Shown piece after piece: positions 30,529 through 33,070 of a DNA stretch of 37,697 bases; position 1 is the stretch's first letter; each line of letters opens with the position of its first letter. Origin of the DNA: Synergistaceae bacterium. Its GTDB lineage: Bacteria; Synergistota; Synergistia; Synergistales; Aminobacteriaceae. The stretch spans positions 1 through 37,697 of the forward strand of contig JAFSWW010000042.1 in assembly GCA_017444345.1 (NCBI GenBank). The letters are read 5' to 3'. The position numbers were made by a program, and so were the translations under genes. Under the pieces are notes generated by a model that saw nothing but the letters and a program-made list of their open reading frames with translations, was not told the DNA's origin and ran no database searches.

Positions 30529-31305
30529 TTATTTTGCGGGAATTAATACAACTTGTTGATCGGCATCATAGGGATCTGAGAAATCCATAACTGCGGCGCG
30601 TTCTTCAGTCATAACTAATGCAGAACAAATCATATCGATTCGCCCAGTTTCGAGAGCTTCCGGCAATACTTCAAATCTATAATCTACCATGATTAATTCT
30701 TTGTCTAACTTTTTAGCAACTGCCGCGCAGAGTTCTACGTCAATCCCCGAAAATCCTTTAATTGTCCTGACTTCATACGGGGGGAATGCAGCCGCACAAC
30801 CGACCCATAATTTTCCGTTCTTGGCTCCGAGATTGAAATCAATAGCTGCCGGGTCAGGCTCTTCAACGTGAATATATTTCGAGATTATAGCCGCTAATGT
30901 GCCTTCTTCTTTTATCTCGACTAATGCTTTATTCACACTCTTGAGAAGTTCCTGATTTCCTTTCTTGACTGCGATCCCGTAATAACTGCTGTAAAGTGTT
31001 TCGGGCAAAATTTTAATAGCCTGCTCATTTGCCGTGAAAAATCTTGCAGGTGATTCGTCCATAACAACAGCGTCAACTTGGCCGACCTTGAGAGCTTCAA
31101 TTAATGCTGCTACATCTTCATAGACTAAAATATTATCTTGAGAATCTTTCAGCATTTCACGAATTAAACTCTCACCGACTGAGGCATTTTGCACACCTAC
31201 TTTTGAGGCTTTGAGGTCGTCAATTTTCGTAATTTCTGCAGACGAACAACCGGCGAATAGGGCTATTACTGCGAGAATTAATGCGATTCTAATAAATTTT
31301 TTCAT
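30529..31305 (-). CDS. Circularly permuted family-3 solute-binding lipoprotein (copy B)
   Basis: The 258-residue protein has a lipoprotein signal (LFAGC, Cys 20). The family-3 amino-acid-binding domain is in swapped order. Residues 26-146 match the usual C-terminal half (KIDDLKASKVGVQNAS; LKVGQVDAVVMDESPA; YYGIAVKKG; NKALVEIKEEGTLAAIISKY). After a ~18-residue linker (146-164), residues 165-258 match the usual N-terminal half (LWVGCAAAFPPYEV; GFSGIDVELCAAVAKKL; GRIDMICSALVMTEERAAVMD then FSDPY). It ends at the hinge after QVVLIPAK. Key ligand elements (the ERxxxMDFSDPY stretch, the VDAVVMD stretch) are kept, so binding is likely. AAGGAGG precedes ATG. No permease or ATPase gene is adjacent. 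Confidence 0.88.
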   Translation of the reverse strand: MKKFIRIALILAVIALFAGCSSAEITKIDDLKASKVGVQNASVGESLIREMLKDSQDNILVYEDVAALIEALKVGQVDAVVMDESPARFFTANEQAIKILPETLYSSYYGIAVKKGNQELLKSVNKALVEIKEEGTLAAIISKYIHVEEPDPAAIDFNLGAKNGKLWVGCAAAFPPYEVRTIKGFSGIDVELCAAVAKKLDKELIMVDYRFEVLPEALETGRIDMICSALVMTEERAAVMDFSDPYDADQQVVLIPAK

Positions 31306-31322
31306 GTTATAGAGTCCTCCTT

Positions 31323-31808
31323 CTAATAATAATAGCCTCTTCTCATCATTTCGCGGCGTTCACGTTCCCAGCGTTCCTGTTCTCTTCTTGCTCTGTCTCT
31401 GCGTTCGGCCTCTTCTATTCTGAGTCTGTTGCGTTCTTCGGGCGTTAAAGGTCTCATAGGACGAGGTGCGGGCGGGACTGGTCTAACTTCAGGATAATGA
31501 GTTCTCCCATCTGGCCTGACATATGGCGCAGGACGTGGAGGAATCGGAGTCGGCGGCACTGGACGCGGCGGGACTGGCTTAGGTACAGGACGGGGTAATG
31601 GACGCGGTTCGGGTCTCGGCACTGGACGCGGCAAAACTTGAGGCTGCTGAGGAGCTACAGGAACTACAGGCCTATATCTTACCGGAGGGGAAGGGGGCGG
31701 AACTACAGGCCTGGGAGCTTCTATAACAGTTGACGATTTTGCAAAACTTGTACCGGCTGTTAAAGTAGCTGCGAGTATAAAGAATGCTGCAAATTTCTTG
31801 AATCTCAA
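31323..31808 (-). CDS. Secreted proline-rich protein with charged C-terminus (copy B)
   Basis: The 161-residue product has a signal peptide (residues 1-23, ending TSFA), a region of Pro-x repeats (PRPVPRPEPRPLPRPVPKP..., about 30-120), and a helical Arg/Glu-rich tail ending GYYY. Starts with TTG 31808, spaced by AAGGAGG. It resembles the copy at 32645 in layout, not in detail. Pro-rich segments of this kind often span the cell wall or periplasm; role unknown. It is 17 bases upstream of binding-protein copy B. Confidence 0.8.
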   Translation of the reverse strand: MRFKKFAAFFILAATLTAGTSFAKSSTVIEAPRPVVPPPSPPVRYRPVVPVAPQQPQVLPRPVPRPEPRPLPRPVPKPVPPRPVPPTPIPPRPAPYVRPDGRTHYPEVRPVPPAPRPMRPLTPEERNRLRIEEAERRDRARREQERWERERREMMRRGYYY

Positions 31809-31834
31809 ATTAATAACCTCCTTATAAAATTTTA

Positions 31835-32629
31835 TTATTTCTTGTCAGCTGATTCCGGTTTATCAGCAAGCACTAAGATTACTTCTTGATCTGCATCATA
31901 AGGGTCGGAGAAGTCCATAACTTTTTCGCGCTCGTCTGAAATTGTGAACGCTGAACAAATCATATCGATTCGCCCTGATGAGAGAACTTCAGGCAAAATA
32001 TCAAACTTGCAATCAATTATAACAAGTTCCTTGTCTAATTTTTTCGCAATTTCCGCGCATAATTCGATGTCAATACCAGCAAATCCGCTTTCAGTCCTAA
32101 CCTCATAAGGCGGGAATACAGCAGAACAGCCAACCCAGAGTTTGCCGCCTTTCGCACCCTTGTTAAAATCAATCTCTGAAGGGTCAGGCTCTGCGTTTAT
32201 ATATTTCGCAACAATACGCGCTAAAGTTCCCTCGTCCTTAATCTCAATGAGTGCCTTGTTTACCTCGTCGCGGAGTTTATCACCCTTCTTGAATGCTATT
32301 CCGTAATAAAAGCTGTTTACAGGTTCGGGCAAAATTTTAAGTCCTTCAGTGTTAAGTAAAAAATATCGAGCTGGAGTCTCATCAAGAACTGCCGCATCAA
32401 TGAGTCCCATTTTTAGAGCGTTAATTAATTCCGAAACACTTTCATAAACGAGAATATTATCGGGTGAATCTTTTAGCATTTGGCTTATAATTGCATGAGC
32501 TGCTGAAGAATTCTCGACACCAACTTTTGCGCCCTTAAGATCGGCCACTGAAGAGACCCCGGCGAATGCTGCTCCGGCCATTATAGCAATCACAGCGAGT
32601 AATAATACAAATCTTGTAAATAATTTCAT
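31835..32629 (-). CDS. Circularly permuted family-3 solute-binding protein (copy A)
   Basis: The 264-residue protein is a close paralogue of the lipoprotein at 30529 and shows the same swapped order: residues 26-146 are the usual second half (VADLKGAKVGVENSS; LKMGLIDAAVLDETPARYF; YYGIAFKKG; NKALIEIKDEGTLARIVAKY), then a linker, then the usual first half (LWVGCSAVFPPYEV; GFAGIDIELCAEIAKKL; GRIDMICSAFTISDEREKVMD, FSDPY). Unlike copy B it has a standard signal peptide (ending AGAAFAG) and no lipobox Cys, so it should be released or differently held. GGGAGG precedes the ATG. It lies 15 bases after proline-rich copy A. Confidence 0.88.
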   Translation of the reverse strand: MKLFTRFVLLLAVIAIMAGAAFAGVSSVADLKGAKVGVENSSAAHAIISQMLKDSPDNILVYESVSELINALKMGLIDAAVLDETPARYFLLNTEGLKILPEPVNSFYYGIAFKKGDKLRDEVNKALIEIKDEGTLARIVAKYINAEPDPSEIDFNKGAKGGKLWVGCSAVFPPYEVRTESGFAGIDIELCAEIAKKLDKELVIIDCKFDILPEVLSSGRIDMICSAFTISDEREKVMDFSDPYDADQEVILVLADKPESADKK

Positions 32630-32644
32630 GTAAACCGGCCTCCC

Positions 32645-33070
32645 TTACTTGCGGTTATTCTTGATTATTTCGGTGAAGATTTCGCCCATGATTTCAGCTT
32701 CCCGGTCATGTCTGCGCTTGCGTTCCCAGTCACGTCGCATTTGTTCTTCATAGGCTCTGCGTTCAAATTCGCGTGCTTCCCATTCACGGCGCTCTCTTTC
32801 TCGGCGTTCGGCTTCCCAGCGCATTTGATCCCGTCTTGCCTGTTCTCTCAAATAATAATCATCAGGCGGAGGAGGCGGCGGAGGAACTGGCACAGGAACA
32901 GGAACAGGCCTATATCTTACCGGCGGAGGAGGCGGCGGGGGCGGAGGGACTGGCACAGGCCTATATCGCGGCGGTGGTGCTGAAATGTAAGCAGCTGAGG
33001 CAATCCCATAAACGCAAATAGAAAACATTGCGGCCAAGAAAAAAATTGCTGCTAATTTTTTGATTCTCAT
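32645..33070 (-). CDS. Secreted proline-rich protein with charged helical tail (copy A)
   Basis: The 141-residue protein has a signal peptide (residues 1-27, ending GIASAA), two runs of consecutive prolines alternating with RYRPVPV motifs (about 30-70), then a long Arg/Glu/Trp-rich helix (about 75-130, REQARRDQMRWEAERRE). AGGAGG lies 7 bases before ATG 33070. It is the first gene of the duplicated module [proline-rich + binding protein]. Function is unknown. The overlapping forward frames at 32708-33021 are only the complement of the proline codons. Confidence 0.8.
   Translation of the reverse strand: MRIKKLAAIFFLAAMFSICVYGIASAAYISAPPPRYRPVPVPPPPPPPPPVRYRPVPVPVPVPPPPPPPDDYYLREQARRDQMRWEAERRERERREWEAREFERRAYEEQMRRDWERKRRHDREAEIMGEIFTEIIKNNRK

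Follow-up and report, generated by a model that had tools for sequence, protein, structure and literature searches.

The window analysed here, the whole stretch of 37,697 nucleotides from a Synergistaceae bacterium, contains two neighbouring genes for proteins of the SBP_bac_3 family, and raises the question whether the two halves of these proteins stand in swapped order around an otherwise normal amino-acid-binding fold, as a sequence-only reading had claimed. Both genes lie on the minus strand. Protein 1 (258 aa, 30529..31305; ORF, PF00497, TIGR01096 and genome profile search) begins with a signal in which a possible lipobox, FAGC, can be recognized by eye, whereas protein 2 (264 aa, 31835..32629; ORF, profiles and AlphaFold2 model), with the same block order, has a signal that looks, also by eye, like one for signal peptidase I (AFA/G). 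The signal of protein 1 is followed by a block comprising lobe 2 and the C-terminal helices of lobe 1 (30861..31233, minus strand; TIGR01096 positions 123-250 at residues 25-145, PF00497 47-130 at 30871-31113), which is normally the last block of the family and comes first here. Then comes a linker joining the old termini, about HVEEPDPAAIDFNLGAKNG (30805..30860, minus strand; approximate limits, taken from the gap between the lobe blocks and the translation), and finally the N-terminal part of lobe 1 (30529..30804, minus strand; PF00497 3-92 at C42:30535-30804), normally the first block, which ends in the hinge strand.

The profile searches gave the same picture for both proteins. Each of them was matched by PF00497 (E 1.8e-31 and 1.7e-30) as two separate stretches, with whole-protein SBP_bac_3 scores of 109.1 and 105.9 bits, which pass the curated cut-off of 26.4. 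Positions 123-250 of the 250 positions of TIGR01096 fell on residues 25-145, i.e. the C-terminal half came first, and the N-terminal parts of family profiles (ArtJ 20-112, HisJ 23-118) fell on residues ~161-254. In the genome profile search PF00497 47-130 preceded 3-92 on the same strand. No single full-length collinear match was found for either protein with Pfam, TIGR01096 or the family profiles; the two partial matches in reversed order are what the sequence-only reading had predicted, and the gap of 17-18 residues between the two lobe blocks agrees with the linker of ~18 residues that it had placed between the old termini. The conventional block order of the family (N-terminal block of lobe 1, lobe 2, C-terminal helices) is thus not that of the window proteins, which are SBP_bac_3 (cluster F-IV) homologues and a topological variant of this family. 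They are 85-88% identical to their orthologues in a sister genome (locus L021), with dN/dS of 0.15 for protein 1 and 0.13 for protein 2, therefore the window genes are real and constrained by purifying selection. The two copies are 62.5% identical to each other, with a dN/dS of 0.125 at saturated dS.

The structure of protein 2 (residues 24-264) was predicted by AlphaFold2 from an alignment of 96 sequences, all of them permuted relatives. The model is a single compact bilobed domain (pLDDT 95.7, pTM 0.90), in which the first helix and strand of lobe 2 open the chain and a long strand (222-231), the family's hinge strand, closes it, so that the new ends are at the hinge, where the cut had been proposed to fall. 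The linker of ~18 residues (about 122-139) is ordered, confidently placed and joins the old ends. Sequential comparison by Foldseek with conventional family members gave TM-scores of only 0.34-0.5. With VIA-align, Bacillus subtilis OpuAC ranked first (Z 13.8, 208 aligned residues, 12% identity) in an alignment that was collinear over model residues 1-236, and conventional members reached Z values of 11.5 or less with ~170 aligned residues. Judged from this model, the window proteins are predicted to have the normal fold built from halves in swapped order. It could be argued that the halves pair between two molecules, forming a domain-swapped dimer with the conventional fold restored in trans. 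The lobes can indeed be separated, as domain 1 of TmArgBP, which was matched in the structure searches, has been solved alone (6gpc), but the compactness of the single-chain model with its ordered linker, together with the narrow length range (21-29 residues) in which the linker between the two pieces of lobe 1 is kept over all array units described below, makes such a dimer quite improbable.

The best-ranking structural match is itself a reported permutant: work published in 2008 (PMC2395249) linked glycine-betaine-binding proteins, OpuAC among them, by circular permutation with ProX and with molybdate-binding proteins. OpuAC (PDB 2B4L) resembles the window proteins in having a Type II bilobed fold with the same lobe order, but it belongs to another sequence family (12% identity, not PF00497) and has another ligand. 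Its family profile, PF04069, was not among the Pfam matches of the window proteins at E 0.01, thus the window proteins and OpuAC share topology only, without a family-level sequence relationship. A second natural circular permutant, TpMglB-2 (Tp0684) of Treponema pallidum, still binds its ligand and closes (PMC4990184). It differs from the proteins described here in having a Type I (cluster B) sugar-binding fold, in which the cut is inside the N lobe and creates an extra hinge crossing, and it is not an SBP_bac_3 protein; the family matches of the window proteins were all to Type II amino-acid-binding proteins, and none placed them in the TpMglB-2-like Type Ic (cluster Bc). Among the PDB sequence matches the best was GlnPQ (6H30), where the alignment spanned from lobe 2 of SBD1 to lobe 1 of SBD2, and the 60 best of these included no SBP_bac_3 chain that was conspicuously permuted.

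Do these proteins still bind an amino acid, and which importer do they serve? In the alignment of the permuted single-unit proteins the Arg of the TxxER-like motif was present in all 21 that have a residue at this position, and lobe 2 kept its Asp in 22 of 22, which bears out the earlier suggestion that the binding residues are retained. In GlnBP these two residues hold the amino-acid backbone. Apart from Arg, Asp and Thr, the site residues of the permuted proteins differ from those of GlnBP. The window pair are natural circular permutants of the amino-acid-binding fold of Type II (cluster F), and we consider it likely that they work as hinge-tethered receptors of amino acids for an ABC importer, a predicted function. 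The chain starts at the first strand of lobe 2 and passes through the C-terminal helices of lobe 1, the ordered linker of ~18 residues then joins the former ends, and the N-terminal part of lobe 1 follows, with the chain stopping on the hinge strand. The most likely ligand is an alpha-amino acid, which would be held between the lobes and passed on to an ABC importer of the GlnP/GlnQ type. Since the two new termini sit at the hinge, this is also where a lipid anchor, membrane domain or following unit would be attached, and, like the sequence-only reading, we infer an altered tethering geometry.

The window contains no permease or ATPase gene. The surroundings of the binding-protein pair consist of a tight gene set with two secreted proteins that are rich in proline and have an Arg/Glu-rich tail, both recognized as ORFs and both on the minus strand. 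One (31323..31808, kept in locus L021 of genome G016) lies between the two binding-protein genes, at distances of 17 and 26 bases, the other (32645..33070) is upstream of protein 2, 15 bases apart; a Pfam search returned no match for either. Proline-rich genes and binding-protein genes alternate, which suggests a duplicated two-gene module. This arrangement would suit orphan receptors, used in signalling or as scaffolds together with the adjacent proline-rich proteins and not as importer subunits; a sensory or scavenging role without transport may likewise be considered. Against this, the genes of the nearest relatives in the genome stand together with those of a permease and an ATPase, and it is common that orphan binding proteins share a permease, so we regard the orphan-receptor reading as unlikely, though it deserves some weight. 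Contig C105 carries a permuted binding protein, a permease and an ATPase in a row, the binding protein being a permuted relative of the window proteins (45% identity), and on contig C62 five permuted binding proteins are followed by a permease and an ATPase. Other permuted relatives form one chain with the membrane domain of an importer, which likewise speaks for transport. The importer reading therefore remains the preferred one: the window pair probably serves a permease encoded elsewhere, for which the C105 permease and ATPase would be the best candidate. An ABC ATPase encoded on C62 (L025:10991-12139, G000:C62) has a C-terminal region that weakly matches HATPase_c_2, below the cut-off, and looks by eye like a serine-kinase/anti-sigma domain. 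A similar-looking tail is present in the ATPase beside the fused permuted domain of genome G027.

The permuted arrangement is not a peculiarity of one locus. The sequence-only reading had spoken of two permutants, which is right for both window proteins but not as a limit, since the SBP_bac_3 genes found in the genome (2.33 Mb, 96% complete), 16 of them single and two of them long tandem-array genes, are all permuted. A survey of 188 Synergistota genomes with the permuted profile, at a cut-off of E 1e-38, found the same type in all 43 genomes of the genus and in another five genera of its family. One of the genera, g28, is represented by a single match (G089, 2.7e-45), and outside the family only one genome (G027), belonging to another family, had a match. 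Of the ORFs of the genus that carry both blocks, all but one have lobe 2 ahead of lobe 1. Elsewhere in the order the conventional arrangement is the rule. The same pair of lobe models placed lobe 1 ahead of lobe 2 in 26 ORFs, almost all of which come from Synergistota families other than this one, and in 28 more ORFs of family f4. Genus-mates retain some conventional members, e.g. L091:9844-10668, and G020:C1:269168-269806 is also conventional, to judge from its full-range profile match. An assembly artefact is ruled out, as permuted ORFs are intact in 43 genomes of the genus and the contigs carrying them reach 461 kb, and a match in Christensenellaceae (L022) proved to have conventional order. 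In a second genome of family f4 (L132:5822-6505, G132:C142) a permuted-type linker and lobe 1 are joined to a membrane domain, in a fragment that is cut or frameshifted near the contig end.

Besides single proteins, the permuted type occurs fused to the importer. G027 has a protein of 515 aa (L099) that combines one permuted unit with a membrane domain, and a further gene of this genome (L131:4989-7691, G027:C6) encodes a 901-aa chain that consists of a permuted binding domain, a membrane domain, an ABC ATPase and a further C-terminal region. The arrays contain 2 (L092:5376-7739), 3 (L087, L091), 4 (L089, L090) or 6 units (L023, L082-L085), the largest having 8 (L086, cut by the contig end) and 12 (L081, 3,252 aa). 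Where the contig end does not interfere, lobe 2 is first, lobe 1 is last, and ~265-295 further residues follow; in L023, the sole array scanned, Pfam identified this C-terminal tail as a BPD_transp_1 membrane domain, and an ATPase gene then follows. L082 has ~120 residues ahead of the first block. The giant importer genes L023:8055-13334 (G000:C114) and L081:3848-13603 (G005:C39) combine 6 and 12 permuted units, respectively, with one membrane-domain chain each. Similar genes are found upstream of both arrays of G000 (L023:5802-7355 and L024:6780-8318); the former matches the C-terminal domain of the iron-only hydrogenase large subunit and the latter starts with the same N-terminal sequence, and it is possible that they reflect a functional link or a shared duplication.

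The order of blocks is by itself ambiguous in the arrays, whose interior also reads lobe 1-lobe 2. One could therefore read them in the conventional register, with the half-domains at the ends as leftovers or as partners in a ring closure, and the permutation would be only apparent. We compared 62 triplets (lobe 2 of a unit, lobe 1 of the same permuted unit, lobe 2 of the next) from 15 arrays. Lobe-1 distances correlated with those of the preceding lobe 2 (r 0.84) and much less with those of the following one (r 0.31), the bootstrap difference of the two correlations being 0.53 (0.45-0.65), and cluster agreement, expressed as adjusted mutual information, was ~0.9 with the preceding and 0.35 with the following lobe 2. 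The linker within the permuted unit is tight, as mentioned above, whereas the inter-unit linker varies between 18 and 58 residues, conventional proteins having 7-25 residues there. It must be noted that such a correlation tells what is inherited together, and the structural claim rests on the models. A two-unit AlphaFold2 model of a natural protein, made with a 65-row alignment favouring by construction neither register, had a pLDDT of 91.7 and a pTM of 0.56, and was disordered only at residues 238-253, which is the inter-unit junction. Each of its permuted units matched OpuAC, with Z 14.5 for residues 258-489 and Z 13.8 for residues 7-239; those matches that ran across the junction, i.e. in the conventional register, had rmsd values of 13-17 A. 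All of this leaves the conventional register hardly any credit, and by the two-unit prediction the arrays are beads of permuted units.

Not all of the beads appear to be amino-acid receptors. Both Arg and Asp are present in only 21 of 74 array rows, on account of which many array units are predicted to bind something else or nothing. A recurring type, e.g. unit 2 of L023, carries His instead of the ligand-site Arg (13 of 74 array rows). In each of the triplets listed it is combined with one and the same lobe-2 type, and it probably has a different ligand.

The arrays also bear on how the permutation arose. Since the permuted block is the unit that is inherited together and duplicated, the arrays are amplifications made after permutation and not precursors of it, therefore they lend no support to an origin by tandem duplication and trimming, which had been proposed from the window alone. 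By analogy with GlnPQ-like tandems, a conventional tandem could feasibly have served as precursor. In a tree of the re-ordered sequences there were three permuted groups (the window/C105 type, the C62/C23 type, and the arrays with G027). In this quick tree the permuted rows did not all stand together but were separated by long conventional branches, and a single clade of all permuted groups was not rejected by the AU test (p 0.27).

Circular permutation of binding proteins has been engineered for biosensors and is natural in a few families. OpuAC is not known to form arrays. A known arrangement close to those described here is GlnPQ of Lactococcus lactis (6H30), in which the tandem SBD1-SBD2 is fused to the membrane domain (PMC8025302). 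It resembles the Synergistales proteins in carrying SBP_bac_3-type (cluster F-IV) tandem domains on the same type of membrane domain, but has two domains, each in conventional order, whereas the Synergistales proteins carry 1-12 permuted units. In the open-access literature we found no permuted SBP_bac_3 protein or lineage-wide use of one, nor any array in which more than two binding domains are fused. Permuted binding proteins were already known, OpuAC and TpMglB-2 being the nearest cases; a permuted SBP_bac_3 protein, its lineage-wide use and importer arrays of 3-12 units appear to be new, none having been found in the literature or among the PDB matches.

We tentatively propose, as a possibility somewhat short of an even chance, that nearly the whole SBP_bac_3 repertoire of this lineage turned into the hinge-cut permuted form, and that this topology allowed bead-like arrays of up to 12 units (3,252 aa) per importer chain, which would amount to up to 24 binding domains of mixed specificities per dimeric transporter, a receptor-array importer. 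The findings also call for caution in annotation, as a collinear profile or a sequential structure search splits or under-scores permuted proteins. In this lineage of uncultured gut Synergistales a single well-studied family is represented by dozens of permuted members next to conventional ones. The permuted ones occur alone, as one unit fused to a membrane domain, or in arrays of 2 to 12, which is a natural test of end rearrangement. It permits asking how ends located at the hinge alter closing, docking and tethering, and whether permutation enabled the receptor arrays.
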